Shown: positions 18,499 through 51,535 of the stretch, one piece after another
How positions within the stretch are numbered: the stretch's first letter is position 1
Layout of the letters: each line of letters starts with the position of its first letter
Assembly (NCBI GenBank): GCA_033439265.1
Contig: JAVTVX010000012.1
Span: 11,939,501-12,003,500, forward strand
Length of the DNA: 64,000 bases
Source of the DNA: Dillenia suffruticosa
Lineage: Eukaryota > Streptophyta > Magnoliopsida > Dilleniales > Dilleniaceae
Direction of reading: 5' to 3'
Notes under the pieces: model-generated
The model's input: the letters and a program-made list of their open reading frames with translations, nothing else
The model's database searches: none
What the model was told of the DNA's origin: nothing
Made by a program: the position numbers and the translations under genes

Positions 18499-18808
18499 GA
18501 GAAAGTAAAGATAATTCGAGAAAAAATGAAGGCAGCTTAAGATCGGCAAAAGAGTTATGCTGATAAGAGGAAGCAACCTTCCGTATTCAAAATAGGGGAC
18601 ATGATATTTTTAAAGATCTCACCTTGGAAGGGAGTAATCCGATTCTGTAAAAAGTGAAAGTTGAATCCTCATTACGTTGGCCCTTTCAAGATCATTGGGA
18701 GGATAGGAAAGGTGGCCTACCGATTAAAATTACCCTCGGATTTGATGAAAATTCATATTGTATTCTATGTCTCAATGTTAAAGAAATATTTGCTAGATCT
18801 TTCACATG
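18499..18808 (+). pseudogene. Integrase C-terminal GPY/F module, part 3 (element 1)
   Basis: This resumes the element 1 frame after element 2. It encodes Y-A-D-K-R, N-P-H-Y-V-G-P-F-K-I-I-G-R-I-G-K-V-A-Y-R-L and V-F-Y-V-S-M-L-K-K-Y-L-L-D. The frame then runs straight into CT-rich sequence at about 18808. The chromodomain that should follow is absent. Confidence 0.85.
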
Positions 18809-22272: not shown

Positions 22273-25200
22273 TGTAACATCGACCCTCGGTGTATTCTTT
22301 TGTATATATATGATTTTCCACGAATTTGTTTATAAATTTCACTAAGAAATTTTTCTAAAAAAGCGACCCCAGAAAATTTTGCCCCAATTGGCGACATGGA
22401 TAAATATTTTCAAAAATGACCACAAATGGTCCTATGATGATAATAATGAATTTGGGGAGTATAGAAATTATTAAATTGAGTAAATCCAAATTGTAGAGTT
22501 TAAATCGGCAAAACCCCAGGAAATTATCGATAAAACCCTAGGCGGGTCAACTATGACTCGAAAAGGCTCAATGAACTTATTTTTACACTAAATAAATTAA
22601 ATTAGGCCTAATATGAGATTTTGGGCCTAGTGTGTATCTATGAAAAGTTTTGGGGTCGAACTTGAATTTTTGTAAGTGTAGGGACATGTTAGCAATTAAC
22701 AATAAACTTAGAATTTAATTGACAAGTGTATTCCTCTTACTGAGAGAGTTAATCCAAGAGTGGAGAATCAATTGAAGTCGCATGCATAATAAGAACCCTT
22801 GGATTGAGTTAGTGGGTGATGACAAGACTTATGCAATCATTTGAGATTGGAAACAAATCAAGGGTGGGTATTTTGCATGGAGAGGATCAAGGATTTGAGC
22901 CATAGATCTTGGTTGAGTGCAATGTGAAAAAGCCAAACAAAAGTGCCATTTCTTTCCTTACCTTAAGCGTGAGAATGCCAAGAGGGGGGCTACCAAAGAG
23001 AGTTCTTCCATTTCCTTGCCAAACCAAGAGCTTATGTGAGAAGATCTTGAAATTTCAGCAAGTGATCTTCAATTTTCCATAGGTAAGGCCTTCTTTTGCA
23101 TCCTAGAATATTATATTTTTGTTTTGAAGCCAAAGGGAGACTCTTAACTTGGTGTACATTGGGTGACCAAAGGCTGAGACTAAGTGGAAAGCTTGCTTGA
23201 GTTTTGGAAGGCAAAGAAATTGAAGTAAAAAGATTCTATTCTGCCTTGTTTTAAATTTTATTTCTATCCGTGACTTCATCTTTGTTTTAAGATATCTTAC
23301 AGTCATAATTTAAAAATGCCCAAGTCAAGTAAATTGTAGATCTAAATCTTATCCTTCCAACGAGATAAGAAGCACCTTAATTAGATACCTGTGCCAAAAG
23401 TTATGACATTTTTCCTGAAACACAACAGAAAGATGTCCTGTTTCGAACCATAACAACAGTGTGTACAAATGACCCTTTCTAGGCATAATTGAATAAAATT
23501 CAAAACATCAAAGTCGTAGATCTATCTCTTGGTACAACATGTTAAAATATCATTATGTTTGGATAAGTGGAATAAAAGTTATAGCTTCTGCACAAATATT
23601 GGACGAAAGCTGAAATTGGAATACGACTGAAACAAAGTGAAGATTTCTGGGAATTTTGTGATGTAAATTTGAGAAAGTGTATAAAATGAAAGTTATAGGC
23701 CATGAAGTTACCTACAACATATCAAAATATCGTTTGAATTGGAGTTGTGTGCAAAGAGTTATTATATTTTTGATAAGACAGGACAAGATGGACATAAAAT
23801 CTGCTTAGGATAACATAATTTAATGTACTTTTATGTGTTGAAACCTTGTGTTAAAATGGCTATAAAGGGTGCAGAGATGTGTGTTGTGCGCTGCAGGTGC
23901 ATGGGCGCCGAGCGATGAGCGCAGGGCGCTGGGCCACGACCCGGCCGGCCTTGGTGCGCGGGTAATGAGTTGATTGAGCACTGTGCGTGTTGGTGGTGGG
24001 CCGGCATGGGCACGGTGTGAGCACGAAGACCGTGCAATGATTTTCAACTGGGCCAAACTTTGGAAAATTTGATATTTTGTTATAAAAACACTTGGAGATA
24101 AATTAGAACACCCTAAAATTTGGCCTTAGATTAAGAAAACTACTAAGATATAATTTATATACATTGTTTTCTATATAGTGACATATATATATATATATAT
24201 GTGATCCTTGTAGTGACACATTTTGGTGATTGAAGGGAACACATTTTCCTACGTGTCGTGATATTTTGAGGAGTGAGCTACCCTCCCCTACAAGTGAGTT
24301 GGATTTTGACGTCTACTATTGATTGAAAACCTATTTTAAATACTTTTCAAAACATGGTTTGAAATGGTGTGATGATTTGAATTTCATATGATTTATGAAA
24401 TATTTTTTTGTGACTACTGGAGTGTCCCAACTGTTGTTCCTATTGATATGTATCCATGGTTTTGATACTTGATGTTGTGCCACTTTTCGATATATCCACA
24501 TGTTTTAATGTTTCCATTGCATTTGACACGTGATTTTGACTTGATATGGTTTTGGATATATGATTGGGCTAGAAGCCCTGTGTTAATACTATGATGACAG
24601 TGTGATGATTGTGATATGCTTCTTATGATATTCCGTAACTACGAAAGATATTTGGTAGAGGCACCCGTTGTGCCCGGATACACCTCTGCAGCGGTATCTG
24701 CCAAATCGTTATATGTATGAATGCGACTGGTTGAACCTCATCGGTGAGGACGTGAGTGTTGTCTCTGTCTAGCACTGGTCGGGGCACCATACATGATTCA
24801 TGATTGATGTCGATGGTTATTTACGGGCTAGCTAGAGTCGCCTGTGGCTAATGTTGGGGTAGAGAGTCTTGTTTTATCATTTGCATTGTGAAAAACCCCC
24901 AACGCGCCTGTCCTTGGCTGAGGTAGGCCCTTGCCGGGGTATTTTTTAGGCCGGCTTTTTATGACTTGATATATACTGGATGCATATGTTGATTTCAATA
25001 TGTGTGCTATGAAATGATTTATTGAAATGCCATGATTGATTTGCACACTATAGATTTGTTGACCTATCATTTGACATTCCATGTTCACACATGATATTAG
25101 TAGTATGATGTCAATCCCCTCACTTACTGGGTACTATCCCACCTTATGGTACTCACCCTTCACATTCCCATTTTACAGGTATAGTCTTGGATTTAGAGAT

Positions 25201-25588
25201 TTGTTGAGGTTTGCTTAATTGAACTGACTTTGGAGACTTACTGGGTTTGGGTATGGTATTACCTGCTCTTCCGCAAATTATTATTTGATGACTCTATTAT
25301 ATATTGGAGATATGTAGTTGACCATTGTATCCAATTATTCTGGGTTGAATGTATTATTTTGGATATGTATCAGTGAACTCTCATGTTGATATATGATCTT
25401 GCATTGAGGCACATTTTGACATTACTATTTTTTTATACTTGGAAATTTATATGAATTGTTAGAATCTGGTTTGGATATATTGTTCCTAACCTTACGGTAT
25501 CTCGATAATGCGAGAGGTTATGCTCGTGTATCGAGGTTCCATGGCGGTTGCTCACGTGCTCAGCCCGGGGGTGGGTTGGGGCGTGACA
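22273..25588 (+). mobile_element. Solo LTR (3.3 kb), nested in the Tat-like LTR
   Basis: Starts TGTAACATCGACCCTCGGTG and ends GGGGCGTGACA, flanked by the perfect duplication TTGCA (22268-22272 and 25589-25593). It contains no coding region, primer site or polypurine tract. It shares the start, the TATA-like run (22302-22311), the GC island (23880-24030), the intron-like signals and the TTGGCTGAGGTAGGCCCTTGCC block with the solo LTRs at 1330 and 59233. A TA microsatellite lies at 24183-24201. Confidence 0.9.
24294..25178 (+). other. Candidate LTR intron (solo LTR 22273-25588)
   Basis: A GAGGAGTGAGCTACCCTCCCC hairpin-like block is followed by donor CAA|GTGAGTTGG at 24294. A CTTACTGGGTACTATCC block and the acceptor CCCATTTTACAG end at 25178. 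Length 885 bp. Confidence 0.48.
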
Positions 25589-27245: not shown

Positions 27246-30032
27246 TGTGATGACCCGCTATTCAGACATCACATCCCCTAGTAAAAGAAAGCAGACATGT
27301 AAATACAGAAACAATTAACACGATTAAAATGCGACGTCTTAACTCACGACAATCACACTCCTTGTATGTGTTAACACGAAAGAAGATTATGTTAAAAGAA
27401 ATTAAATTATTTGTTATTTTCAAATAAAAAAAAAGACAAAATCCCCCTATCTAGTGACTATTTTGCCACCAAAAGTTAATATAAAATATGATAAAAAACA
27501 TAGATCACTTATAATACCAAAAAAATAGTATTAATAACTTTCTCGGCCATCTGATAACACACAATGAAATAGTGTCTCAACATAGGCAAAACTATATATA
27601 TAAGTCTCTTCTTGGCCTTCAATTATTTATTTACATATAACTGATACTCGTACAAATCCAAAAAAAGTACAAGAACAACATGTCTTAATAAAACAAATAA
27701 GTCAGAAAAGAGTAGAGAATGAAATCCCTTGACTCAAAAGTCTCTACCCTGTGATTCCCTCTCGTCTCCCTGATCAATTGAAAACAAGGATATTGGGGTC
27801 AGTATAAACTGAGCAAATACACGGGAGACCAGTAGCATGCATAACAAGTAATCAGGCATAGAAATATTAATATCAACAAACAAATATCGTGACATCGAAG
27901 AGTATACAAAAGATACACATTATTTCAAATAATTCTAAAGAAATAAGTGCAATTACCACTCTACATTCATTATCTTTCTCTATGTTTATTGTTTTAATTT
28001 GAAATTGATATTTAAAAAAGGGAATAAAATATCAAATCAAGTTAGTGTATGAGGATCTGGAATAGCAAACCAAAATTCGATATTTCTAAATGAAATCTAG
28101 GTCTTTTAGGTTAGACACATCAAACACTTTACCGACTTCTAATTCCACTCTCGTAGAGAGAAGAGATACATCCATAGTTCTTCAAGCTTTGCTCGCAGAC
28201 TTCGTAAAGCTTTTGGAACTCCATATACCAACTATACTCATTAAACTTCACTCGCAGGCTTTGCAAAACTTTCAGAGAAATTGTCATAATATCACTTTCT
28301 CTTCATATTATTTCAAGTTCACATGAGTAATGATCACAAAGATTCCAATTTATCACAATGATTATGTAGAATTCATAACCAAATATCATAAATATGCAAT
28401 CCCTATACTCAATCAACTTATAACACTTCAATGAACTATTTAAGTACAAATAAGTTTTGATCAAACCGTCATATCTTAGGCTATAATATTTGGATCGAGA
28501 TGAATCCATTTGTCATACAAAATTAAGACTTAGGGCTACAGCTTGTATATTCATAACAAGTTGTAATTCTAATTGCACATGGAAATCCACATCAAACAAT
28601 ATTATAATCTAAAATTCACAATACAACTTGTGCAGTCATAGAAAAATCAACATTATTTCTTTTACACATATCAGATTGGGATGAGTCCAATGGCTATTTA
28701 AAGATAAGACATAGAGATACAATATTCATGTTTAGAGGTTAGTCTAATTCAGTCTAAAAGAGAGTCAACAATTGAGGCAAATTTTAGCACAAAAATTAGG
28801 TAGAAACAGGGTTTTTTTTTTTAACAGAAAATGTAACATTTTGAAAATTCACCAAAAATTCTTTTCTCAATGAAATTTTTCGAATCTTATGTCATTTTAA
28901 AGCTATTAAAGTCTAGTCAAAAGAATACATTACGTGATTTGTAGTTGTATAGAGAAAGATATTTAATAAAGAATAGAGATGATCATGTTATAAACATGGC
29001 TATTTTTTTGCAGAGATTATGCTATTTCAAAACTTCACCAAAAATTTAATTTTCCACGAAACGCCTTGAATCATATGTCATTTTAAAGTTAAGGAAGTCT
29101 AGTTTCTTTAGAAGAAAATGCTACTCAATTTGTAATTATACAGAAAAATATATTGAAGAAACAACAGAGCATGGTCATACAATCTAGAATTTTAAATCTA
29201 GATTTTCTATCATCTTTTGATATTCTAAAGTGAGATTTTCCTTTTTTTTTTCAATCCATCTTTATTTAAATACTACAAACAATCTGAAAACATATTAAAC
29301 ATGGCTATTGGCATAAAAAACAACAAAAATATGGTATTTGCCTCAAACTTATTTTTTTCCTTTGAGTTTCTTTCCTTTCCTTTCCAATTTTCTTTTTGAA
29401 TTTCTAGCTTGTTCTTTGTGTTTCCTACAACCCTTTTTTCTTCATAAAGACTAAGGTTAACATATATATAGATGGAGGTGGTTTATTTCAAGTTTAAAGA
29501 GTGATTTTCATGGTGGTTTGGGTGAGTTTCTGAAGGAAGATGATAGAATCCGAAAATGAACTTTTAGGAAGATAAATGTTATGTTTTGAGTTCTTTCTCT
29601 ATCCCTATCTCTCTACCTAAGTGAAATGTGGGGTTCAAGTATGGGGAGGTGTCAAAAGTAAGGGTGCCATGTGGTGGGTGATGATGTGTTAGTGTGTCAA
29701 ATTATTTTTATATTATTTTATTTTTAATTTATTTTTATTTTTATTTTTCTTTTTCTTTTGTGGGTCCCATATCAAACCCTAAATATGTTGTTTACAAGAA
29801 ACCATGAAGAAAGTTTGATCATTTTCACTAGACAATATGTTCCATAAACTTGCTAATTTTAATATGATCGATCTCTACTTAAAACCATAAATATGAAAAT
29901 TGAAACATGCATCACAAATAAAAAAAGAAATCAAAGAACTTTGTCACAGTACGATGAGAAAAATTTAAGTGTGTTTGATAAAATGCAAATGTAAGTGCAT
30001 GCTTTAATATTTTCTCTAAATGAGACTTTACA
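27246..30032 (-). repeat. 3' LTR of element 3
   Basis: 2,787 bp, TGTGATGACC ... ACTTTACA, homologous throughout to 37814-40586. A TATA-like run (29461-29471) lies about 565 bp from the LTR start on the minus strand. The block CTCAGTTTATACTGACCCC, followed on the minus strand by an acceptor-like TTTTCAATTGATCAG (near 27770), recalls the acceptor region of the other LTRs, but no clear donor was seen. Confidence 0.9.
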
Positions 30033-34171: not shown

Positions 34172-37021
34172 TGTAACACTGATTTTCGGTGACTATGTAT
34201 CATATACCACTCCTTATAATTATATATATATAAACATCCTTTTGAGACATATAAAATGAAAATTTATTTATTTATTTATTTATTTTGAGGTTTCGCTTCA
34301 AAATCACAAAAAACCAAAAATTTTATCAGTAAGTCGAAAACCTTCTCGGCAAGTGCCTACAAGGCCTAAAGAAGTAAAAAATAGTTAAGAGAAGGCCTAC
34401 ACACAAAAATAGAGATATTTAAATGAAATTGGACTAAATTACAAACCACTCAAGGATGGACAATTGGAGCCAAATGATTGGTCAAGAGGGAAGCAAAGTT
34501 GGTTAGTGGCCACATAAGATTTTTTCACATTCAAAAAAGTTTATTGGATAGAAATTTATGCATAAAAGTTTATTGAATAGAAATTTTTGCCTGAAACCTA
34601 ACTAGAATAGCTTGTTCTAGTTTGTGACACATCTTCCCTTGACAAGGACATCTACAAGACACCTAATGAAGTGCATAGAGGTTGCTTGAATCAACGATTG
34701 CATGGTTTAAGTGTTAGGATAAGTGGAAGGTTGAGATGATGAATGAAATGATCTAATGGTCAAAGATATTTGGCTAGGTTTATAAAAGAACTTGTTTAAG
34801 AAGAGTTTGGCTCATTTCCTTCATTCAAACCACCCCTTGCACGAAATATGTAGAGTCCATTTCCATTTTTAAGTTTAACTATGGAGCCAAAGAGGTAAGA
34901 ATAATTTTTAAAAATTCTTAAATTTCAATTGGAAGTATAAAAGTATTGTGTAGAAATTTATGTTCATTGTGATTTGATTTTACTAAGGTGAAAAAAAATT
35001 ATCAAGGATTCAAAGGAAGTGCTGTACTTATTGATAAAGAGATCTTATAAAGAAGGTAACATATCCTAACTTATGCTAAGATTAAATTATTTGATGAATA
35101 GTTACTTTGGTATCCATACTAGCATACTAGATAGTGATTTCTAAGTTGAGTCTTATGTAATCTTGCTATGATATCTCATTCTGCAAAAATAAAAAATCTA
35201 AGATATTTATTTTTCTATAAACTAGACTTCCTAAGCTTTAAAATGACATATAATGTGAGGCATTTCATGAAGGAATCGATTTTTGGTGATTTTTGGAAAA
35301 TTAGCATGTTTCACCTATTTTGTTTCATGTCCTGTGTATGACCAGCTACTTGTGTAAATTTTTTAGGTATCTTCTGTATGGAATGTAGAGAAATGTTAAG
35401 CATAAAAGTTTTAGATCTCTCTCTTATCTTTAATTGAGATAAAAATCACTTAAATCGGAGTTGTAGGCAGAAAGTTATAGTGTTTTTACTAAAACTGTGC
35501 GAAAATAGTTTTAAAATCGAAACTGAGATGAAAATGGAATTTTATAAAATTTTATGTTTAAAATTTGAGAATGGTCTAAACTAGAAAGTTTTAGATCTAT
35601 ATTTTATCTTCAATCTGAGATAAGAATCACTTAAATTGGAGAAATATATAGGGAGATATGGAAATTCTCCCAAACATATTTAGAATTGGTTTTAGGAACT
35701 TAGACCGAAAAAGTGATAAATTTTTCTAAATTTGTGTGTTTAAAATTTGAGGTTGGTCTAAACATAAAGGTTGGAGATATATTTCTTAGCTTTAAGAGAA
35801 AATTGAAATTATTTGAATCCAATCAAGATTTTAGAAGATATCGGGATTTTACTAAACCTGCGCGTGATAGGTTTTGTAGAAACTTTTCTCTAAATATGAA
35901 ATTTGAGATTTAATCATATGAAAGAGAATATTTTTGTATGCATCTTGTAATCCGACGACATAACATTGAATTGATACAAGGACAGTTAAGGGAGTGCGTA
36001 CCCTCCCCAATCGAGGTGAGTGAGACGAACTATTTTGACTTTAAATGAGAAATAGTTTTGATCATGATTTTATAAATGAATTTTGAAATATGATTTAGAA
36101 ATGTTTTCGTATTTGTGGCATGTCTTGAAATGTTGTTCGGTAAAAATTTGTATCCTGATATTATAGTTACTTGATAGTGTTTTGTTTTTACGAGTAAAGA
36201 TTTATGAATGATGACATATGCCACATGTGTATGATTATGGGATGCGGTATAGTGGCTATAGCGCACTCCTTACCATGGTATTGAGCATTTACCTGACGGG
36301 GTAATGTGGTGAGGTAACACAGGAGCAGGGGTTTGAGTCCCCTGTTTCTGTCCAATGGATCCAATAAATGAGCACCATGTGAGGACCATCTCAACATCAA
36401 GGGAATGGGGGAAAATATGTGTTTTATTCTTATGATATTTTAGTGACCTCTTGGTGGATTTTATCCTAATAGGCCAAATTATGGGTAGAATACATTTTTG
36501 ACTCCCCATTGATGCATGATTGATGATAAGAATGCCTATTATCTAAATTACATGATATATTTGCAAATGAATGAAATATAAATTTGAAAATGATATTTTG
36601 ACTTATCACTCTCGCAAATTCATTTATTATCATTATATAGTCATTGCATCTCACTCACTGAGTATGTGGATTATACTCACCCCTCATAATTACATTTTCA
36701 GCTTGTACTGTGTTGACTTACGTTGAGATATTGTACCACGACCTTTACCAAGAGTCATTATCAGGTATATGTTCATACATACCCTTGTTTACCATTGGAC
36801 CATGCAAATAAATATTATATGTAAATTGGAAGCAAATGTTTTAAAAAAATTTTCGAAAGATTTTCTTCTTCTTTCACTGTATGATTTGACTTAGGATATT
36901 GAATAGGGTTGTAATATTAGACATAATATTGGCCTTGCATCACCTCGATGTGCGAATAGGGCATACCTGTGCTCCGAAGAGTCGTGGCGGTCTGTTCGCG
37001 TGCTTGACCTGGAGCGTGACA
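34172..37021 (+). mobile_element. Solo LTR (2.85 kb) of the element 2 family, nested in element 3 gag
   Basis: Starts TGTAACACTGATTTTCGGTG and ends GGAGCGTGACA. It is homologous over its length to the inverted LTRs of element 2. The flanking pentamers AAATC (34167-34171) and AAAAC (37022-37026) match at 4 of 5, and gag coding resumes beyond it. It has no internal element region. It carries the TATA-like run (34221-34233) and candidate intron 36016-36701. Confidence 0.9.
36016..36701 (+). other. Candidate LTR intron (solo LTR 34172-37021)
   Basis: Donor TCGAG|GTGAGTGAGACG starts at 36016, just after GTGCGTACCCTCCCC. A TGAGTAT-GTGGATT-ATACTCA hairpin and the acceptor AATTACATTTTCAG end at 36701. 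This is the cleanest of the seven examples; length 686 bp. Confidence 0.52.
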
Positions 37022-37813: not shown

Positions 37814-40586
37814 TGTGATGACCCGTTTCCAAACGTCGCACCCCCTAATTAAAGGGAACATGCATACAAATGCGAAAGCAACTAACATGATTAAAATACG
37901 ATGTCTGGACTTACGACAGTCGTACTTCTCGGGTGTAATAACACAGAATGAGATTTATATTAAAAAAAATTAAATTTTTTGTTATTTTGAATTAAAATAA
38001 TAGCAAAATCTCCCCTATTAAGACTCTCCTCGCTATCTGATAAAATCTATTAAAACACACATATCACCTATAATATCAAACAAACAGATATTAAGGCTCT
38101 CCTCACCATCTGATAACACACTATAGAATATAATCTCAACATAGACAAAACTATACATATAAGGCTCTCATTGGCCTTCAACTATCCATTTACATATAAT
38201 AGGTACTCGTACAAATCTAAAAGAAATACAAGAACAACATGTCTTAATCATACAAGTAGGTCAGAAAAGAGTATGAAATGAAATCCCTTGGCTCAAGGTT
38301 TCTACCCAACGATTCCCTCTCGTTTCCCTGATCACCTGAAAATAAGAATATCGGAGTTAGTATAAACTAAGCAAATACACGGGAGATCAATAGCATGCAT
38401 AACAAGTAATCAAACATAGAAATATCAATATCAACAAGCAAATATCATGACTTCAAATAGTACACAAGAGATATACATTATCTTAAACAATCCCAAAGAA
38501 ATAAGTACAAGTACCACTCTAGATTCATTACCTTTCTCTATCTTTATGGTTCTAATATGAAATTGATATTTAAAGAAAGGAATAGAATGTCAAATCAAGC
38601 TAGTGTGTGAGAGTCTGGAATAGCAAACCAAATTTTGATATTTCTAAATGAAATCTAGGTCTTTTACGTTAGACACATCAAACATTTTACCGACTTCTAA
38701 TTCCACCCTCGTAAAGAGAAGAGATACATCCATAGTTTTTCAAAATTTGCCCGCAGGCTTCGTAAAGCATTTAGAACAACATATACCAACTATACTCATT
38801 ACGCTTCACCCGCAAGCTTCACAAAGCTTTCGGAGAAATCATGTAGTATCACTTTCTCTCATATTACTTCATGTTTACATGAGTAATGATCACAAAGATC
38901 TCAATTTATCACAAGAATTACATAAGATTCATAACCAAACATCATAAATATGGAATCCCTATATTCAATCAACTCATAGCACTTCAATGAACAATTTCAG
39001 TACAAACAAGTTTTGATCAAACTGTCATATCTTGCACTACAATGTTTGGATCGAGATGAATCCATTTGTCATACAAAATTAAGACTTAGGACTACAGCTT
39101 GTATATTCATAACAAGTTTTAGTTCCAATTTCACATAAAAAACCACATCAAACAATGTTACAACCCAAAATTCACTAGATAACTTGCGTAGTCATAAAAA
39201 ATTCAACATAACGTTTTCTACACATATCGGATTGAGCTGATTCTAGTGGCCATTTCAAGATAAGACATAGAACTACAATATTTATGTTCAGAGGTTAGCC
39301 TAATTCAATATAGAAGGGAGCTAAAAATTGAGGAAACATTTAGCACAAAATAGGTAGAAATACAGTTTTCTTACAAAAAATGTGACACTTTGAAAATTCA
39401 CCAAAAATTTATTTCTCAATGAAACTCTTTGAATTTTAATTTTAAAGCTATTGAAATCTTGGTTTTTTTTTAAAATAAAAAACCTTAGTTGATTTTTAGT
39501 TGTACAAAGAAAGATATTTAATAAAGAATAGAGCATGATTATGCTATAAACAGAGCAATTTTTCTACAGAGATCATGTTATTTCAAAATTTTACCAAAAA
39601 TTCAATTCTCTATGAAATTATTTGAATCATATGTCATTTTAAATTTAAGGAAGTCTAGTTTCTTTAGAAGAAACCCTACTCAATTTGCAATTGTGCAGAG
39701 AAAGATATTGAATAAAAAATAGAGCATGGTCATGCTGTCCAAAATTTTAAATCTAGGTTTTCTTTCATCTTTTGATGTTCTAAAGTAAGATTTTCCTTTC
39801 CTTTTTCAATCCATCCTTATTTAAATATTACAAACAATCTGAAAACATTTTAAACATGGCTATTAGGTATCAAAGAAACAATACAAGCATGTTACTTGCC
39901 TCAAACTTGTAATTTTTTTTCCTTTGAGTTTCCTTCCTTTCCTCTATAAACTTTCTTTGGATTTCTAGCTCGTTCTTTGTGTTTCCTATAGTCCTTTTTG
40001 CTTCCCAAAGACTAGGGTTAATATATATATGGATGGAGGTCATTTATTTCAAGCTTAAAGAGTGATTTTCATGGAGGTTTGGGTAAGTTTTTGGAGGAAG
40101 ATGATAGAATCCGAAAATGAACTTTCAGGAAGATGAATGTTATGTTTTGAATTCTTTCTCTATCTCTATCTCTCTATCTAAGTGGAATGTGGGGTCCAAG
40201 TATGGTGAGGTATCAAAGGTAAGGGTACCATGTGGTGGGTGATGATATGCCATAGTATTAAATTATTTTGATTTTATTTTATTTTTATTTTTCTTTTCCT
40301 TTTTCTTTTTCTTTTTCTTTTGTGGGTCCCAGACCAAACCATAATTCGATTCTCTTATTGCATTATTCTGATCATTTCCATAACCCAATATGTTCTATAA
40401 TCTTGCTAATTTTAATGTGCTCGACCCTACTTAAAACCATAAATATCAAAATCGAAACATGCATCACAAATAAAAAAAAACAAATCAAGGAACTTTGTCG
40501 TAGTGTGATGCAAAAAATTTAAGTGTATTCAATAAAATACAAATGTAAGTGCATGCTTTAATATTTTCTCGAAATGGGACCTTGCA
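37814..40586 (-). repeat. 5' LTR of element 3
   Basis: 2,773 bp, TGTGATGACCCG ... GACCTTGCA, paired with 27246-30032. A TATA-like run is at 40020-40030. No coding region was seen. Confidence 0.9.
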
Positions 40587-41008: not shown

Positions 41009-41779
41009 TGATGTGAACCCGTTGGGTATAAAAACCCTAAAACACACGAACAAGTTAATTTAGCCCAAAAATCGTCCCAACAAATTATTTGAACCGGTGG
41101 AATTAAAGATCTCAACCCTTGCCCTAAAGGAGGAAGAACCTAAGGTATATGACCTTAGACTCGTTTCTCACTAGATCAAGAACCTTGGTATAAAGATGGA
41201 ATGAATGACGCCACAATCTAGATGGTTCGAAACATAGATTGATAAGTCAAAGAACTAAACAAGACTCCTATCTTGAATAAGTTCAAAGTTCTCAAAAGAA
41301 CAAGATCTATGTGAAGAATCCTCACAATTTTATTAATTCTCTCCAAAGTATTATTTTACACAACGTATAATGGCCTATTTATAGCCTAAAGATAAAAACA
41401 TAATTGGCAACTAAAAATTTAGAAACTCTCTAAACAATAAAGAATTAGGAAACTAAACATAAGTTACAAAAAAATAAAAATTAGGAAACTAAATAAATCA
41501 AACTACTTTGACCAAGTCTTGCTGCTATTTTTCTTCATTTTCATCCTCCATTGGTTTTGGATAGTTTTGGGCTTTTTATTCTTCCTACTGGGCTGTATAA
41601 GCATAATTAAGGCCCCTTGTGGTTCTATATTTATTTGGCCTCCAATTTCTTGTTGTAAAGCTCCTTGAATTAAGTTATTCAGTGCTTTTTTGAATCTTTT
41701 AGTTCGGGCCTTTGTCACCGGCCCAACTGGGACTTGAGTTGGGTCTCGTGAATTCCTTGCAATCTTGATGATCTCATCA
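41009..41779 (-). repeat. 3' LTR of element 5
   Basis: 771 bp. On the minus strand it starts TGATGAGATCATCAAG and contains a TATA box CTATAAATAG (41375-41384). The polypurine tract AAGAGGAGGGGAA lies directly upstream (41780-41792). Its first 277 nt encode the C-terminus of the polyprotein. Confidence 0.92.
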
Positions 41780-42165
41780 TTCCCCTCCTCTTGAGAAGGA
41801 TTTGTCCTCAAATCGTCACCTACATCAAAAGGACTCAAGTCAGTAATATTGAAAGTAGCACTAACATGATACTCACATGGTAAATCAAGTTTGTAAGCAT
41901 TGTCGTTGATCCATTCTAACACTTGAAAAGGACCATCTCCTCGGGGCAACAACTTAGAACGTCTCTGTGCCGGAAATCTTTCCTTCCGCATGTGTAACCA
42001 AACCCAATCACCGGGTTCAAAAATCAACTTGTGACGTCCCTTGTTAGCTTGTTTGATATATTGTTCGGTCCTCCTCTCTATATTGAACCGTACTTTCTCG
42101 TGAAGTTGTTTCACAAATTCTGCTTTTCTTTTACCATCTAAATTTACTTGCTCAGAAATAGGTAA
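41503..42165 (-). pseudogene. Integrase C-terminal domain of element 5, extending into the 3' LTR
   Basis: The frame runs from just after a TGA at about 42166 to a stop at 41503. It holds the GPY/F-like module (G-D-W-V-W-L-H-M-R-K-E-R-F-P, G-P-F-Q-V-L), then S-A-T-F-N-I-T-D-L-S-P-F, an acidic linker, and a basic tail (T-K-A-R-T-K-R-F-K-K-A-L-N) encoded inside the 3' LTR. No classical chromodomain is visible; CRM elements carry a divergent CR motif at this place. The 5' LTR has the same tail (54836-54632) with a different end. Confidence 0.82.
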
Positions 42166-43263
42166 AGGTCAGAAATCCAAAGGAGTTAAAGGATTAAAAC
42201 CATAAACAATTTCAAACGGTGAGAATTTAGTAGTAGAGTGAACAGCACGATTATATGCAAACTCAACATGTGGCAAACATTCTTCCCAAGTTTTAATATT
42301 TTTACCAATGACAGCCCTCAACAAAGTGGATAAAGTTCTGTTGACTACTTCTGTTTGACCATCAGTTTGAGGATGACAAGTTGTTGAAAATAAAAGTTTC
42401 GTTTCTAACTTTCCCCATAATGTCTTCCAAAAATAACTCAGGAACTTAGTATCCCGATCTGAAACGATTGTTCTAGGCATCCCATGTAACCTCACAATTT
42501 TCCTAAAGAATAATTCCGCAATATGAGAAGCATTGTCAGATTTATGACAAGGAATAAAATGAGCCATCTTAGAAAATCGATCTACAACTACAAAGATCGA
42601 ATCTCGTCCATATTTATTCTTAGGTAAAACCAAAACAAAATCTATTGAAATGTCAATCCAAGGTGAACTAGGAATAGGTAGGGGTGTGTAAAGACCATTA
42701 GGTTGAACCTTAGATTTAGCTTGCCTACAGGTAATACATTTACCACAAAATCTCTCAATGTCTCGCTTCATGTGTGGCCAATAAAAGTGCTCTTGTAAAA
42801 TTGCCAAGGTTTTAGCAACTCCAAAATGTCCCATTAACCCTCCGCTATGAGATTCTCGAACTAACAACTCTCTCAATGAACAATTCGGCATGCACAACTT
42901 ATTTTCTCTAAACAAAAAGTTCTCATGCCTATAGAATTTGCCCTCTGCAGACATTTCACATGCACTATAAATTTCTCCAAAATCATGATCATCATGATAA
43001 AGTTCTTTAATATGCTCAAAACCAAGAAATTTAGCATCAAGAGTAGAGATTAAGGCATACTTGCGTAAAAGTGCATCCGCAACTACATTCTCCTTACCTT
43101 GTTTATATCGAATGACATAAGGAAAAGTTTCGATGAATTCCATCCATCGAGCATGTCTCTTATTCAACTTATGTTGACTTTTCAAATGTTTCAAATTCTT
43201 TCGGCCACAAATAGTGTTGCCATGTCTCCAAAGCTCGAACCAAGGCGTACAATTCTTTGTCAT
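42166..43263 (-). pseudogene. RNase H end and integrase of element 5
   Basis: Nearly intact integrase: zinc finger H-S-G-G-L-M-G-H ... C-G-K-C-I-T-C-R-Q, core with D-I-S-I-D-F, S-D-R-D-T-K-F and Q-T-E-V carrying the D,D35E-type residues, then [13 protein letters not shown] followed by TGA. At about 43190-43200 a deletion of around 20 nt has removed the RNase H H-T-D-H segment and shifted the frame. Confidence 0.9.
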
Positions 43264-43537
43264 AGGTAGGATAGTTAAGTGCAGCCCCGCTTAACTTCTC
43301 GCTAAAGTATGCAAGTGGTCTTTCATCCTGCATAAGAATAGCGCCTATACCTACACCAGAAGCATCACATTCAATTTCAAATGTTTTAAAAAAGTTCGGT
43401 AAAACAAGTAAAGGTGCATGAGTAAGCTTATGTTTAATAAGTTGAAACACCTTCTCTTGCTCTTCACTCCATTGAAATGCAATGTTTTTCTTGATGACTT
43501 GTGTAAGCGGTGCAGCGATAGTGCTAAAACCTTTCAC
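43169..43537 (-). pseudogene. RT thumb and RNase H of element 5
   Basis: Encodes [24 protein letters not shown] (first RNase H Asp) and N-Y-P-T-Y-D-K-E-L. It is joined to the upstream RT by a 1 nt deletion at about 43550, where the F-Y-R-R motif becomes F-Y-G-G-S and a stop. The downstream end is lost in the 20 nt deletion. Confidence 0.88.
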
Positions 43538-45036
43538 GAACCTCCGTAAAAACTAGCAAGACCATGAAAACTTCTAACATTACCTATATTGGAGGGGGTT
43601 GGCCATTCTTGGATGGCTTTGATCTTCTCTTCATCTACCTCAATGCCTTTAGCACTCACAACAAAACCCAGAAAAACAAGCTTGTCGGTGCAGAAGGTAC
43701 ACTTTTTGAGGTTAGCATATAAATTTTCTTTTCTAAGTACATCCAAAACCGAATGCAAATGTGAGACATGATCATGCAAACTTTTGCTATCTATCAAAAT
43801 ATCATCAAAATAAACAACAACGAATTTACCAATAAAAGCACACAAAACATGATTCATTAAGCGCATGAATGTACTAGGAGTATTGGTTAATCCAAAGGGC
43901 ATAACTAACCACTCATACAACTCATATTTAGTTTTAAAAGTTGTTTTCCATTCATCTCCTTCTTTCATTCGTATTTGATGATATCCACTCTTAAGATCAA
44001 TTTTAGAAAACACACAAGCACCATGCAACTCATCTAACATGTTATCTAAACGAGGAATAGGGTGTCGATATCTTACCGTTATGTTGTTGATGGCTCGGCA
44101 GTCAACACACGTCCTCCATTTTCCATCTTTCTTAGGTACCAAAATCACCGGAACTGCACATGGACTCATACTTTCTCTCACATGCCCATTTTCCATCAAC
44201 TCTTCAACTTGTCTTTGAAGCTCCTTCGCCTCTTCTGGATTGTTTCTATATGCTGGACGATTTGGAATTGATGCACCGGGTATGAAATCAATTTGATGTT
44301 CAATCCATCGGATAGGTGGCAAACCTTTGGGTAGCTCTTCAGGAAACACATCTTTGAATTCCTGCAAAAGAGAAACAATAACACTCGGCAAAGAAGGGTT
44401 AAGTTGGTCAGTGTTTAAAAGGAATTCCTTGTACATAAGTACAATCAGTGGCCATCTTGAGAGCATCGCTCGCTTAACCTCACTTGTTTTGGCATAGAAA
44501 TTCTTTTGTTTTCTCTCGGATTTTACCTCATCAGCCGAACTTTCCTCTCTTTTCTCTTTCTCATCAAATTTGGCCTTTCTCTCTTCTTTTCTCTCTTTTT
44601 TCTCTTCACTCAACCCATTTTGATATTTTTGTTTCTGTTGCTCACTCAATTTTTGCAACCTCACTCGGTCTTCATAGACTTGCTTTGGTGTCATCCGAAT
44701 TAAAGTAATTTTTCGTTGGTTGAACATGAATGAATATTTATTGGTGAAGCCGTCATGTTGCACATGTCGATCAAATTGGCAAGGCCTTCCTAACAAAATA
44801 TGCCCAGCATGCATTGGCACCACATCACATAACACCTCATCTTCATATTTCCCAATCTGGAATGGTACAACAACTTGTTTTGTAACCCTCACTTCTCCAC
44901 TATCATTCAACCATTGTAGCTTGTATGGTTGAGAATGTTTAGTGGTTGTCAAATTCAGTTTTTCTACTAAAGTCTTACTCGCAATATTAGTAAAACTACC
45001 ACCATCAATGATCAAAATGCATACCTTGTCTTTCAT
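43534..45036 (-). pseudogene. Protease and reverse transcriptase of element 5
   Basis: An open stretch of 500 codons. The protease active site I-I-D-G-G-S is near the start, followed by G-R-P-C-Q-F-D. A long charged spacer rich in Glu and Lys follows (residues about 120-180). Then RT: F-P-E-E-L-P, P-V-I-L-V-P-K-K-D-G-K-W-R, F-S-K-I-D-L-K-S-G-Y-H-Q-I, M-P-F-G-L-T-N and the catalytic Y-F-D-D. All visible RT catalytic residues are present. Inactivation is by the frameshift at its end and by upstream stops in the same frame as gag. Confidence 0.9.
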
Positions 45037-45093
45037 ATGGCAACGAGTGTGAAAGATATTCTCCCGTTGTACTTCTTCTTCATCTCCTTTGGC

Positions 45094-46377
45094 TTATAAG
45101 CTTAAGGCTTGACATGTTACTAGCGTTAACATCTCACCATGTTCAGCCCCATACTCCTTAGCTCCGATGGGGATGTCTTCCAATGGAGGCAAACAATCAA
45201 TGTCACCTTCATCTTTAGACTCGATTGGACCATTTTCCCGAATCACCATAACTCTCTTGTTTGGATATTGGCTAGCTATATGTCCTCTTCCATGGCACTT
45301 GAAGCATTTAATCTTACTAGATCGAGTTAAAGTAGGGGTTGACTTACTTTGAGAAGTCGTGGTGGAGATAACAGGTTTATGTTCAGGCTTAACTCTGGAG
45401 ATGGCTGAATTTTCTTCTTTCTTCGGGTAGCTCATTCTCCAAGATGTTGCATTCAGATTCTGTAGTGTTGGTTTTGGTCATGTGTTACCTCTTTTGAGCT
45501 GCCTTTCAACCTTGATTGCCATATGTACTAAATCCTCCAACTCCACATAATGGTGAAGCTCGATCGTGTTGGCAATATCTCGATTTAAACCATTCAAAAA
45601 TCTAGCCATCGTCGCCTCTCTATCTTCTTCCACATTAGCTCGAATCATAGTCATCTCCATCTCTTTGTAATACTCATCTACACTTCGATTACCTTGGTGG
45701 AGACTCTGTAACTTGAGATATAAATCCCTATAGTAATGACTCGGCACAAATCGTCATCTCATCACCCTCTTCATCTCACCCCAAGTTTCAATAGGTCGAT
45801 CCCCATTCCATCGTCTATTGATGCACATCTGATCCCACCATACAATTGCATAATCAGTAAACTCAATAACAACAAGTTTAACCTTCTTTAATTCAGAATA
45901 GCTGTGACAATCAAAAACTAATTCAATCTTCTTTTCCCACTCAAGATATGCTTCGGGATCACTTTTACCTTAAAACGACAGAATTTTCATCTTGATACTA
46001 CCTAAGTTGTTGTCTACCTGATTATTAACTTCTCTATTTCGATCAAGTCTCCTATGACTACCCACTGATAACCTATCAAACTCCTCTTCTAACCCATCCC
46101 CTTCAAACTCATCCACAACTTCAGTTTCTCTTTGATGAATCCTGTTCCTCCTAGAGGCGGTCGGCACTATTGATGGTTGTCCCCTTTGCGACCCCTCTTC
46201 CAGCTTATCCAACCTTTCATGTATAAGATCTAACTCTCTCTTCATCATCCGTCTCATCTCCCCCATAAATGCTTGTAGTTGTAGATTCGACCCAACTTGT
46301 GGTTGAAGCTCCTCACTTATGTTATCTTTATGATTTTGAGTCATGATTGAAATCTGCAAGACAATGTTAGAATACAA
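45094..46377 (-). pseudogene. gag of element 5
   Basis: One continuous reading frame from about 46377, interrupted by stops near 45968, 45748, 45476 and 45092, the last just before protease in the same frame. So gag and pol formed a single ORF. The gag core between and after the first two stops has A-Y-L-E-W-E-K-K-I, W-W-D-Q and Y-Y-R-D-L-Y-L-K-L-Q. The zinc knuckle is C-F-K-C-H-G-R-G-H-I-A-S-Q-Y, where the last Cys is replaced by Tyr. Few other defects are seen. Confidence 0.87.
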
Positions 46378-47117
46378 TAGGAAGGAAACTCACCACACTC
46401 CCTCACGTATTTCACTAAAAAATAATGATTCACTCAAATCCACTCGTGTTTCACTCTATGTATTTGGCTTTTATTTTTAATGAATTCTCTCTTGCCTTTT
46501 ACCACTCTACTTCACTTAGTCAAGTTCTTTATTGAACTCGAGAACTCAACTCAAAAATAATTGTCTTGTGAAATTCAATGACTTATATAGAAGAAAGTAT
46601 AACAAGAAAAGTAAGAAGGAAAGAGAAAAATAAGGAATAAGAAAAGTAGTAAATTTAAAAAGAAATTTCTAAATTAGAAAGGAAACAACCAAGGAATGAG
46701 ATAAATAAGGAAGGTGAACAAATAAGGAAGTAGTTCATGAAAGGATAACAAATATGGAAGGTTTGAATTTGGGTAAGTGTACTAATAAGGAAATATTTCA
46801 AACCCAACCATAAAAAATTTAGAAAATTCTAATTCAAATTTGGTAATAACACTTTAAAATTTGCCAAATTTAAACAAAATCACAAAATAGAGAATTATCA
46901 ATTTTGCAAAATTTGAAAACTGCCCCTTTTTTTTTTCACGGCCTCTTCTCTTTTTTTTTTTCCTTTTTTTTTTTTTAGGGAATATGATAGTTCAAAAATA
47001 AAGAATAAGTATACCAAAAATAAGAAATAAACCAACGAATGAAGAGTTTTTAGACAAAAAAAGAAAAAAAAATTAAATAAGAATAATTCGAAGGAAGAAA
47101 AAAAAAACCTGGATTGA
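46378..47117 (-). other. Untranslated leader of element 5
   Basis: About 740 bp between the primer site and gag, AT-rich, with poly-T/poly-A runs (46922-46975, 47057-47107). Reading frames here are low-complexity and I see no gene. Confidence 0.6.
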
Positions 47118-47130
47118 CTCTGATACCAAC
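47117..47130 (-). promoter_or_regulatory. Primer binding site, initiator Met-tRNA type (element 5)
   Basis: Minus-strand TTGGTATCAGAGTC, 1-2 bp from the LTR, matches the first ten or more bases of TGGTATCAGAGC. Confidence 0.88.
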
Positions 47131-47169
47131 TGATGTGAACCCGTTGGGTATAAAAACCCACTACAAAAT

Positions 47170-47345
47170 TATATCTCTATACTGACGGTAACTTTTATTA
47201 TCGGTAACCTTTAACAACGGTTTCTTCTTACCTATACCGACGTTTTTTACAAAACCGTAGAAAAATATATACATATTTTAACAGTATAAATTATAACGTC
47301 GAGAAAAGTTTATAAACCATGAGTAAAGTTAATAGGACCGTCGGT
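47170..47345. repeat. Left subterminal repeats of the CACTA element
   Basis: Repeated words around CGGTAA, ACCG and CGACG in both orientations (CTGACGGTAAC, TATCGGTAACC, AACAACGGTT, TACCGACG, GACCGTCGGTAA), as expected for transposase-binding sites near CACTA ends. Confidence 0.6.
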
Positions 47346-48379
47346 AAAAATGATATTCAATTTCTGATGATTATCTTTTGTAGTTTGGTAAATATAATAT
47401 TTTTAGAGACGATTTGAAAATAATCAGGTCTACTGGATCTACTTAACCATACTGTTTGTATAAATTTATAATTATGATAACTTGTATTCTACTATTTGCA
47501 AATGTTATATTTCTATATATATTTATATAATTTTTAAAAACAGTTTAAAATTTTAGAGTTAATATAGAAGGGAATAATTTATGATAACGTGTGTTATGTG
47601 TATTGTAATACGTTATAATCTGTGATGTTAATAACGTGTGATAAGTAATGGTAGCAACTTAAGTAGTGGTAACCTATAACTTGTGATAAGTAGTGGTAAT
47701 AATTTGCGAGAAATTTGTAAAAATATAAAAAATTTATAAAAAAATTAGAATTATTTTGAAATACACAATATACCATTTTCTAATAATACATACATAATAT
47801 TAGTACTGTATATATTATTATAAATTATAAATTATTGGAGAATATATGTTAGTTAATATTATTTTAAATTCTCTTATATTAACAATTTAAAAAATTTTAA
47901 TATTTTTGTATAGAAAAAAAAAGAAAAAAGAAAAGTAGAAAAAAGTGTGGAAGGTTGAGAGAAAAAAAGAAAAAATAAAAAAGAGAGATAACTTTTTTTT
48001 CGTTATTTTTTAGTATTTTGACAACGGACATTTTTATTAATATGAAAGTGAGAAAAGTTAAGACTAAAAAAAAAAAAGAAAGAAAAGGGACACATGGTAA
48101 GTTTATGATATATAGTTGTGGTAAATAGTAAATAGTAAGTTGTTAGTATATGGATGGTAAATAGTAGTAATTTAAGTTTTATTTTAATTTATATTTCAAC
48201 TATTACATTTTATCATTTTATATTTTCATTAATTTAATTTAATTTAATTTAATTGTATTTGTATTTTTTTTCTTATTTTGTGTTTTTATAGAATTTATAT
48301 AAACCATTTTATAAATAAGTTGTGATAATTTATAAAATTTATAGAATTTTTTTAATTTATGATAAATTGAAATAAAAAA

Positions 48380-48541
48380 GTTGGTAATTGTGAAAATAAG
48401 TGGTAAGTAATGATAAGTTGTGATAAGTTGTGATAAAAATGTTGGTAATTGTGATAATAAGTGGTAAGTAATGATAAGTTGTGATAAGTTGTGATAAAAA
48501 TATTGGTAATTGTGATAATAAGTGGTAAGTAATGATAATTT
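48380..48541 (+). repeat. 61 bp tandem repeat, about 2.7 copies
   Basis: The phrase TGGTAAGTAATGATAA recurs at 48401, 48462 and 48523, exactly 61 bp apart, inside the CACTA element. Confidence 0.85.
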
Positions 48542-49564
48542 TGAATGAATGATATTATTATATTAGTGCGATAATATAAAATGATGGTTATTAATATTAA
48601 TTTAAATTATAATATATTATTAATTTAATAAATTTATATATTTAATTATAAATATTTACCAAAATATAAAATATTAAATAATTTATCATAATCTGTGGAA
48701 GGTAGAGAATAAAAGAAAAAAAAAAGAAAAATGAGACACATGGCAAGCTGTATCATTTCCGTTACTTCCATTTTTATTTAATTGTCTCTTTATTATTTGT
48801 TTTAATTTATTTTTTCTAATTTTTTGTTTTTCAAATGATATTTATTTGTGAAAAATTACGTCTGTGAAATTTATCTAAAATTTATTTGTCAGTGATAATA
48901 TAAAAAATCTATATCATCTTCAAATATAATATTCATCTAAACAATTATATATTATATTTAAATACCTGAAATTTGTAAACTGAAAAAAAAAAAAAAAGAG
49001 AGAACAAAAGGTTGAATGAGAGTGAGATAAGGAAAAAAAAAGGTGGCAGATAAGAAAAAAAAAAGGAGAGTGAAATAGAAAGAAATATCATCCGTATTTT
49101 TGAAAAAAAAAAAAAGAAAAAAATTGGAAGATGAAAAATGTGTAATGAAAAAGGGCAGGAAAATTGTGTAATAAAAAAATATCCAGAAAAAGAGATTTTA
49201 AAATTTTATTTTGAAAATTTGTTTGTTATAAATTTAATTTGAAAAAGTGGTATATCCAAGAAGATAAAATGAAAATGTAAAAAAAATTACAAAAAATTAA
49301 GATAAATATTCACCATTTTCCAATAATATAATAATATCAATCTTATATTATTATATAATCTATATATATATTGCTATATATATTACCATAAATTACAATG
49401 AATTTTAATATGATAATTATCGATATTAATTTATATTATAATATATAAAAAAATTAAAAATTTTAAATATTTCATTACAAATTTTACCAAATTTTATTTT
49501 ATGGGTGAGAGTGGGATAGGAAAAAAAAAATTGATAAGAGAAAGACAGGCATCCACATGCCAGC

Positions 49565-49660
49565 GCAGTTGCAGCCATGTGCCCTGCGGCTGCAACTGCA
49601 AGTGCAGGGGCATGCCAGAGCCCCTGCGCGCGCTTGCAGCCGTGCCCCCCGCGGCTGCAA
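49565..49660. repeat. Three consecutive GC-rich hairpins in the CACTA element
   Basis: Stem 1 GCAGTTGCAGCC/GGCTGCAACTGC (12 bp, 49565-49599, loop 11). Stem 2 GCAGGGGC/GCCCCTGC (8 bp, 49604-49627, loop 8). Stem 3 TTGCAGCCG/CGGCTGCAA (9 bp, 49634-49660, loop 9). Stems 1 and 3 share the GGCTGCAAC word. The island is sharply GC-rich in an AT-rich element. Confidence 0.85.
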
Positions 49661-49680
49661 CCGTGGACACTACTGTTCAT

Positions 49681-49955
49681 CTTTTTTTTTTTTTTTTAAA
49701 CTTCTTTTCTCATATATTTATCAATTTTTTGCTTTTTTCTTTTACTTTTTTTTTACCCTTCACCCTTTCATTTTTTTTGAACCTTTTTTTTTCTTTTTCT
49801 TCTTCTTTTTTATTTTTATTTTTATTTTTTTTACCTTCACCCTTCCGTTTTTTTAACTTTTTTTTGTTTCTTCTTTTTCTTTTCTTTTTTTTTATTTCAG
49901 TTTTTTCTTCACCTTTAATTTTCTTTTTTTTTCATTCTTTTTTTTTTCTGTTTCA
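49681..49955 (+). repeat. T-rich low-complexity tract
   Basis: About 275 bp of T-dominated pyrimidine-rich sequence. The long Phe-rich reading frames across it are artefacts of composition. Confidence 0.85.
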
Positions 49956-51224
49956 GTATTACAGGTTGCCCTTGTGTAGTGCACCAAGAGAAATATTGAT
50001 AATAATACATTAATTATCAATATTAATTATCAATATTATATAATTTTATATAAATTCTAAAAATATTTAATTTACAAATTTAACTTTTTAACATTGAAAA
50101 ATTGATAACTCTACAATAAAATTATATTCTCGTCAAAATCAATTTTCTAATTTAATCAAATTTCTCTTTTTTGTGAAAAAAATATTTGTTTTTTTATTCT
50201 AATCTAATTATTTTTTTACCAAAACAATTAATTCATTTTAGATAATTCAAAACAATAATTTTTTTTTGCACCAGATCACAAATTAACAATCAAATTTGAT
50301 TGCAAAAAAATTTTATCATTTTATTTCAAATTCAAACAACTCAACTTTATAAAAGCTGGTGGCAGAGCAAGTGAGATATGATACGTACATTTAATTTAAA
50401 AAATATTACTATAGTTGTTAAATTAATTAGTGATAATGAAAGTATAAAAATATTATAAAAAATTTAAAATTATTTTCAGATACAAATGTACTATTTTCTA
50501 ATAATATAATAATAACATTCGTAAATTATTACATAATATATACATATTACTATATATATTACTATAAATTATAAATTATCGTTAAATGGAGAATATATAT
50601 TAGTAATAATATAAAATCATGATTATTAATATTAATTTATCAATTGTCCTGCATGCAAAAATGATGAAACATATTGGTTGAGTGTATTTGGAATAAATAT
50701 ATTAGTAGAATTATCAACGTTATATAATTTAATATAATTTTTAAAAAAAATTATTTAATATACAAATTTAGTTTTTTAAAATTTTTTAGTGATAACTCCA
50801 CAAATTCATGCCAAAATCAAAAACAATTCAAACAATGATCTTTGCACCACATCACAAATTGGCGGTTAAATTTGATAAAACTACAAAATATTTTATCATT
50901 TTATTTCAAAATCAAGCGGCAAATTTTGTGAAAATTCCAAAAACATTTTATCATTTTATTTCGGAATCAATGTACCCGCAAAAATTTTTTTATTTTTTTG
51001 CCCATTTTCCATGAATATTTTTATTTTACAAATCATGACTATTAATATTAATTTAAATTATAATATATTAATAATTTAAAAATTTTATATATTTAATTAC
51101 AAATATTTGCCAAAATATATAATATTAATAAAGATAAAAAAGTGTCATGATTTGCATTTTGCATTTTACATTATATATTTACAAAAAAAAGAGAAAATAT
51201 TGTTTTATCGTGATAACAAATAAT

Positions 51225-51535
51225 AACAACATGTAAGATAATGTATTAATGTATGGTAATAAGTGATAACAAATAATAACAATCGGTAACAAATGATAAT
51301 ATATCATAATATAATGCATGATAACAAGTGGTAACAAATAGTAACAACCGATAACAAATAATAACAATCGGTAACAAATGATAATATATCATAATATAAT
51401 GCATGATAACAAGTGGTAACAAATAGTAACAACCGATAACAAATAATAACAATCGATAACAAATGATAATATATCATAATATAATGCATGATAACAAGTA
51501 GTAACAAATAGTAACAACCGGTAACAAATGATATT
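51225..51535 (+). repeat. 85 bp tandem repeat, about 3.5 copies
   Basis: ATAATGCATGATAACAAGT recurs at 51311, 51396 and 51481, an exact 85 bp period. Each unit is made of GGTAACAAATAG/GATAACAAATAA variants. The copies are nearly identical, so the expansion is recent. Confidence 0.9.

Follow-up and report, generated by a model that had tools for sequence, protein, structure and literature searches.

What is the same intron-like stretch doing inside the long terminal repeats (LTRs) of several plant retrotransposon families? The question is raised by a window of 64,000 nucleotides (nt) of Dillenia suffruticosa (GenBank assembly GCA_033439265.1, contig JAVTVX010000012.1, positions 11,939,501 to 12,003,500, forward strand), which is made up of nested Ty3/gypsy DNA and contains the LTR A3 (34172-37021, plus strand). 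The interval 36016-36701 of A3 (plus) opens with GAG/GTGAGT and closes with TTTTCAG. Judging from the sequence, we consider it likely that this interval and its counterparts are U2-type spliceosomal introns lying in the untranslated 5' leader of chromovirus-like Ty3/gypsy retrotransposons with long LTRs. Within that leader, the interval would probably be the second of two, perhaps three, introns.

The original prediction listed seven donor/acceptor pairs. Besides A3, the predicted intron 2 lies at 7977-8661 in LTR A1 and 15876-16503 in A2 (both minus), at 4836-5684 in C (plus), 59573-60412 in D (minus), 19491-20276 in E (plus) and 24294-25178 in F (plus). All seven have the announced bases on the expected strand, starting with GTGA(G/A)(T/A) and finishing with CAG or TAG, and their length of 628-885 nt agrees with the 630-890 bp given. 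They had been said to come from seven LTRs of different families; they actually represent five families and six insertions, as 7977-8661, 15876-16503 and 36016-36701 belong to one family (A), two of them to the LTRs of a single element. Conserved flanking blocks had been described as well: blocks of the GGGAGTG...CCCTCC type do occur, ending 5-10 nt from the donor (in altered form in A1, degenerate in E), and every acceptor is preceded by a block of the TGAGTA type, which reads TGGGTA in F. Also, two LTRs of family B that had gone unlisted, B1 (27246-30032) and B2 (37814-40586, minus), carry an acceptor tract together with the branch-like word. In B1 the acceptor reads CAA, no GTGAGT was found among the best-ranked donor sites of the B LTRs, and B2 gave no donor 2.

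The acceptors were ranked among all YAG sites with a score devised for this analysis after the sites had been seen, and six of the eight scored LTRs have the predicted site at rank 1 to 3 (A1 1/66, A2 2/69, A3 1/57, B2 1/60, F 1/53, C 3/94 in a tie with its own duplicate, E 4/35, D 10/89). Donors rank 1/172 in A1, 1/149 in A3, 2/96 in E, 2/201 in F, 7/148 in A2, 16/216 in C and 25/215 in D. GC content falls by 0.14-0.31 across the donor, the step being weaker in E and F; with the donor itself counted, it is equalled by 1/138 GT sites in A2, 2/154 in A1, 2/138 in A3, 1/203 in C, 5/203 in D, 7/88 in E and 16/187 in F. T accounts for 40-44% of the first 80 nt of the intron vs 23-36% of the last 75 nt of exon 2. 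A YYNAY branch match lies 18-26 nt before all eight scored window acceptors, with an AG-free, pyrimidine-rich tract. Read by eye, the branch-like word is CTCAC, CTGAC, CTAAC, CTCAT or CCCAC; in C (CTTAT) and D (CCTAC) the match of the script lies nearer the acceptor and is not the word of the hairpin described below. With its GT donor, YAG acceptor, branch site and tract, and U-rich, GC-poor body, the predicted intron would fit the U2-type GT-AG class.

The acceptor side is abundant well beyond the window. In the genome searched (596,357,000 bases, 37 contigs), the acceptor block CTCACTGAGTA-N3-28-TACTCACC has 3,053 exact matches (1,513 plus, 1,540 minus), and the reversed control has 0. Among the matches listed, about sixteen neighbours on the same strand were seen by eye to lie 5.7-8.6 kb apart, a spacing that paired LTRs would have. 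The first AG falls 19-28 nt past the block in all of the first 30 loci and is a YAG in 29 of them; 18 of the 30 have a strict donor pattern. A second set of 44 loci, retrieved through the same block, forms 17 clusters, in 16 of which the first AG comes 15-28 nt after TACTCACC (null 21.5%). L084, whose first AG is 3 nt after the block, was dropped, and 13 of the 16 clusters counted present a donor, under a pattern loosened from that of the 30-locus test and with a donor-bearing member as representative where one existed. Fourteen of the 44 loci (L083-L096) were chosen for differing hairpin strings, and the set overlaps the window families, clusters L059 and L075, at least, being kin of C and A. 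The pattern had 0 matches in a viral contig collection, two matches in prokaryote metagenome-assembled genomes were taken as chance, and an RNase H query found no relatives in the viral and prokaryote collections.

The most telling evidence comes from start codons. If the spliced RNA is translated, its exons should avoid ATG, and its introns need not. Exon 3 was counted over 60 nt, a limit set after the results for 60, 120 and 300 nt were known (120 nt gives p = 0.0018). In the window, A2 (representing family A, in place of A1 and A3), B2, C, D, E and F were counted; B1, in which no donor 1 was found, was left out. Their predicted exons hold 7 ATG in 1,146 nt vs 268 in 9,521 nt of intron (6 vs 28 per kb; Fisher p = 9.2e-6), and substituting A1 or A3 for A2 gives 9 or 6 exon ATG. 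The five anagrams of ATG occur in exons at 0.81-1.14 of the intron rate, and the depletion holds for exons 1 and 2 alone (p = 7.6e-4). When the windows were slid jointly from -300 to +300 in steps of 20 (31 shifts), the ATG minimum was at shift 0. In the second set, exons 2 and 3 together have 16 ATG in 1,935 nt vs 450 in 12,133 nt of intron (8 vs 37 per kb; Fisher p = 1.2e-12), that is 9 in 975 nt of exon 2 (the 13 clusters with a donor) and 7 in 960 nt of exon 3.

Conservation between families follows a wider pattern. In the five-family alignment, 12 blocks reach a mean identity of 0.75 or more; 40 shuffled alignments have 0.17 such blocks on average and never more than 2, so that the shared blocks are not due to chance. 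The donor and acceptor blocks rank among the most conserved, yet the donor block is equalled or surpassed in score by 8 blocks inside the intron. The 22 best blocks reach at most 28 columns upstream of the donor; three of the weaker ones come after the acceptor. As the blocks spread through the intron, conservation marks the whole unit and not the splice words alone: the predicted intron is a mosaic of conserved blocks, in which conservation is not unique to donor and acceptor. The selected spliced leader of the original prediction is thus well supported by splice-site rank, branch word, AG-free tract, GC step and, above all, ATG avoidance in exons; the expectation that donor and acceptor would stand out from the rest of the LTR is borne out by their high conservation, and fails against the 8 inner blocks. 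It had also been asked whether relatives keep both sites. In 24 family A rows, donor 1 is kept in 19/22 copies, donor 2 in 20/23 and acceptor 2 in 21/23, a within-family test that is not decisive; the identity of intron 2 is moreover biased, the copies having been ranked on that stretch. Chance hits and window copies (L001, L002, L003 and L006) were kept out of these rows, as were seven copies from a tandem array.

Blocks that fill the interval could instead be promoter or enhancer elements of a long U3, with transcription starting downstream of the acceptor and with the splice-like words incidental. Some blocks contain ATGCAT, which we take to be a transcription-factor site word. We hold this explanation to be very unlikely, as it gives no reason for an ATG-specific depletion in exons that is lowest exactly at the predicted positions, nor for a pyrimidine tract free of AG behind the branch-like word, where 16 of 17 clusters have their first AG at 15-28 nt. 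Family A also has a TATA-like box that speaks against it: in A3 (34781-34790, plus) it stands 114 nt before donor 1, and the spacing is equal in A1 and A2.

Upstream of a spliced leader's second intron, a first exon and a first intron can be proposed. The last 80 nt of the predicted exon 1 of A3 (34815-34894, plus) end at the donor GAG/GTAAGA (34895). The same GAG/GTAAGA is found in A2 (17676-17681, minus) and TAG/GTAAGG in F (23083, plus), so that GTAAG-type upstream donors are present in A2, A3 and F; that of A1 is weaker. Candidates for donor 1 are GTAACG in C (4143) and GTATAA in D (61609), and B2 (minus) has GAG/GCAAGT at 39899, a branch-like TACTAAC and an acceptor TTTTCAG at 38336. These upstream donors were picked by rank and context. 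The predicted exon 2 measures 72 nt in A1 (8662-8733) and A2 (16504-16575, acceptor CTTAG), both minus, 76 nt in C (4760-4835) and E (19415-19490), 80 nt in F (24214-24293), these three plus, and 82 nt (or 76) in D (60413-60494, minus). In these six LTRs its acceptor is a YAG about 75 nt before donor 2, after a stretch with at least 9/17 pyrimidines; one was chosen each time from two to four YAG candidates within the 120 nt scanned, and shuffled sequence yields such an acceptor 7-22% of the time, depending on the family. A3 has lost this acceptor by a deletion, and it is kept in 21/21 scored copies of the family A rows. By eye, the predicted exons 1-2-3 of A2 (15813-17694, minus) form a single open frame of about 36 codons from an ATG near the end of exon 1. 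In C, E, F and, with either acceptor, D, the length of exon 2 is not divisible by 3.

Suggestive signs of a third intron are seen further on, with a donor about 63 nt into exon 3 and an acceptor just before the gag ATG. The predicted exon 3 of A3 (36702-36764, plus) is followed by donor 3, CAG/GTATAT, at 36765, and the donor 63 nt into exon 3 is kept in 22/22 copies of the family A rows. It reads GTAAGT (once GTAAGG) in the family A relatives L018, L024-L026 and L028-L032, and the donor 3 score reaches at least 7/9 in 4/16 clusters vs 9% of random windows. In A2, L037, L042 and L048, the candidate acceptor TTTATGTAG stands 4 nt ahead of the presumed gag ATG, and CTCTAG lies 7 nt ahead of that of element B, the gag start codons having been assigned by eye.

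Exon 3 also bears on whether the spliced RNA would serve gag at all. The LTR might make its own short, spliced and polyadenylated non-coding RNA, the introns serving that RNA or intron-mediated enhancement. The apparently solo LTRs A3 and F do retain intron 2 and donor 1, ATG avoidance is over by about 60-90 nt into exon 3, and solo LTRs of a flatworm TRIM are reported to start cis-spliced long non-coding RNAs (PMC4558846). AUG avoidance nevertheless fits a translated leader, not a non-coding RNA, and the GTAAGT at the close of exon 3 in some family A relatives, like the TAG 4 nt before the presumed gag ATG, also counts against this reading. On balance, such an RNA seems to us unlikely to be what the introns are for.

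The DNA copies tell which RNA may have been copied. All seven listed LTRs of the window retain the intron stretch, and both B LTRs retain its acceptor side. For family C, the exact word joining acceptor and exon 3 has 1,227 genome copies, and the exact exon 2-exon 3 junction has 0 copies genome-wide. Because the DNA copies keep the intron and the spliced junction is absent, the reverse-transcribed RNA seems to be unspliced. That splicing separates genomic RNA from a translated mRNA, as the original prediction suggested, can be proposed from this retention and from the AUG-rich introns. A never-spliced interval is opposed solely by the sequence evidence of the sites and the ATG pattern.

The branch site itself appears to lie in a hairpin, the branch-point-like TACTCAC before the acceptor forming its 3' arm. 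In A3, the inverted repeat TGAGTAT..ATACTCA (36659-36679, plus) has CTCAC in the 3' arm. The hairpin is part of the best fold in 8/10 window copies (not A3, not E), with individual z of -0.1 to -2.1; over a longer stretch of A3, the best fold pairs other bases than this repeat. Strong z values in 5/6 genome hairpin strings are partly built in, the search pattern fixing six pairs. The unfixed inner pair 8 covaries, being paired in 35/39 strings vs 23.8 in shuffles, with 0/2,000 shuffles reaching it, in a sample of 42 distinct, related strings from the listed matches only and not all 3,053; pairs 7, 9 and 10 have no pairing excess over shuffles. The branch word of D is altered to CTGAC, and its 5' arm is without a matching change, which speaks against strict pairing. 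Hairpins at the end of exon 2 (GGGAGTG..CTCCC) were considered and set aside, their folding energy being ordinary and z low only in D.

Alternatively, a structured RNA domain (a packaging or dimerisation signal) might be what the interval mainly represents, with the splice sites secondary. The complementary words ATGCATCCA and TGGATGCAT (one G-U in F) occupy like positions far apart in D, E and F, and a conserved helix of that length is reached in only 2, 1 and 6 of 60 column shuffles for three sequence sets. The number of conserved long helices, on the other hand, is reached by 53, 24 and 10 of 60 shuffles, no compensatory change was seen in the long helix, and Rfam has no match at gathering scores. 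The long-range helix is suggestive at best, and we regard a mainly structural role as improbable.

Several observations count against a spliced leader intron. Conserved blocks throughout the interval are not needed by a plain intron, and the donors of C, D and A2 have the weak ranks given above. The strict donor pattern is missing in 12/30 loci and the looser one in 3/16 clusters. Among the GT and AG sites of family A, retention ranks donor 1 only 53/132, donor 2 47/132 and acceptor 2 32/151. Past the first 60-90 nt or so of exon 3, ATG is no longer avoided (p = 0.16 when counted to the LTR end), so that if there is no third intron, upstream AUGs still precede the gag AUG. Tested by itself, exon 1 yields p = 0.084, with the anagram GAT nearly as depleted; in family A it contains two ATGs (23 per kb across copies). 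Zero spliced junctions are equally expected of an intron that is never spliced, and one family was tested in one exact form. Lastly, Tekay is absent from the expressed set in sunflower, according to an excerpt of PMC7730604.

With these points weighed, we still favour the spliced leader intron, and infer splicing, a transcription start upstream of exon 1 and distinct fates for spliced and unspliced RNA. Transcription would begin upstream of exon 1, and removal of introns 1 and 2 would join short, AUG-poor exons ahead of gag. The unspliced RNA would retain its AUG-laden introns, be poorly translated and be copied into DNA, whereby each new LTR would regain the introns. More tentatively, the hairpin whose 3' arm contains the branch point may slow or tune the splicing of intron 2, and intron 3 may end at TTTATGTAG, in which case the mRNA would lose the primer-binding site. 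Taken together, it is conceivable, if rather doubtful, that the LTRs are long because they house a three-intron splicing switch: the leader would be either kept whole, as an AUG-choked, untranslated template, or fully spliced to an mRNA leader of about 220 nt, nearly AUG-free and uncopyable because intron 3 takes the primer-binding site with it, and the hairpin burying the branch point would set the ratio.

The elements that carry these LTRs appear, from their sequence, to be chromovirus-like Ty3/gypsy retrotransposons with long LTRs. Element A (minus) has A2 (15562-18500) as its 5' LTR and A1 (about 7663-10640, ends approximate) as its 3' LTR, 87% identical by blastn. It contains, in order, RVP_2, RVT_1, RT_RNaseH and SH3_Tf2-1 (protease, reverse transcriptase, RNase H, integrase end); the rve match, with an E value of 0.0082, falls below its cut-off. 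A chromodomain-like end was seen by eye in A, in B and upstream of C, but Pfam had no match for it on the two short pieces of A. A3, assigned to family A by blastn to A1 and A2 and ending in TGTAACA...GTGACA, is apparently a solo LTR sitting within element B, whose LTRs were delimited by blastn. C (3242-6299, plus), D (59233-63094, minus), E, whose start was not found, and F (22273-25588, plus) belong to families other than A and B; F is a solo LTR with the 5-bp target-site repeat TTGCA on either flank. The primer-binding-site word TGGTATCAGAG occurs in 3/20 downstream stretches and GGTATCAAAGC in 1 more, and TTGGTATCAGGG was found after LTR B2; we take all three to belong to initiator tRNA-Met. 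The other 16/20 stretches are without a primer-binding-site match, and L046 among them still shows the internal leader.

Other features of the window and of family A were noted. The 3' part of LTR C is duplicated in tandem (5442-7177, about 860 bp, 78% identical), the copy running on to about 7176 and bringing another acceptor (6537) and another LTR end. The predicted intron of C has a 34-bp perfect inverted repeat (5097-5236, arm starts about 106 nt apart), apparently a local inverted duplication. The family A intron contains GCAGGGGTTTGAGTCCCCTG (36325-36344), which resembles a tRNA T arm; ARAGORN found no tRNA in the window. A short-LTR Ty3/gypsy element (41034-54836, minus) carries reverse transcriptase, RNase H and integrase between LTRs of about 746 bp (41034-41779 and 54091-54836, 94% identical), in which the motif scan gave no such intron block. 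A tandem-repeat-like stretch (57968-59217, copies 64-68% alike) adjoins LTR D. On contig C15, at about 16.4-17.3 Mb, 8 family A copies (L004, L005, L009-L014) with like scores are separated by gaps of about 106-112 kb in 6 of 7 cases and about 203 kb in one, which suggests a large tandem array containing the family A LTR.

Long LTRs characterize the Tekay (Del) clade. The elements of the window resemble this clade, as far as seen here, in Ty3/gypsy gene order and, judged by eye, in a chromodomain-like end, and the excerpt of PMC6317226 describing it mentions no leader intron. The barley Ty1/copia element BARE1 is similar in that splicing yields separate RNA classes for translation and replication and the unspliced RNA is copied; it differs in having, at the gag end, a 104-nt intron that yields a Gag-only mRNA, whereas the introns predicted here are upstream of gag, in the LTR (PMC3735527, where spliced Bagy2, Ogre and CRR are also named). 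Ogre, a Ty3/gypsy element of the Tat lineage, also has an intron spliced from a subset of its transcripts (PMC6317226), but an Ogre-type intron sits between gag-pro and pol, and the present interval is inside the LTR. In maize, CRM4TR transcripts derive from the LTR-UTR (untranslated region) of a CRM chromovirus; these are tandem repeats from another chromovirus clade, and the excerpt claims no intron conserved across families (PMC3648361). Diaspora, a soybean Ty3/gypsy family, counts with BARE1 and CRM4TR among the nearest cases; five LTR donors and two acceptors flanking the start codon were predicted for it, the 5' UTR being otherwise very long; that prediction concerned a single family, and its authors stated in 2005 that introns upstream of gag had been reported for no LTR retroelement (PMC1142308). 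A 2025 review describes plant LTR retrotransposons as generally intron-free, with Ogre and EVADE as exceptions (PMC12786077), and neither 'splic' nor 'intron' occurs in the text of PMC3059260. Among the titles and abstract beginnings that our searches of open-licence papers listed, we found no LTR-internal leader intron conserved across families; an earlier description, for instance in subscription papers, is possible.

It is an open question how retrotransposons divide one transcript between its translation and its replication. If our reading is true, an LTR leader intron would solve this sharing by splicing alone, and could explain why certain plant LTRs are as long as 3-4 kb. Also, given the 3,053 exact copies of the acceptor block, the many LTR copies of this genome would offer host genes ready-made exons, splice sites and leader introns.

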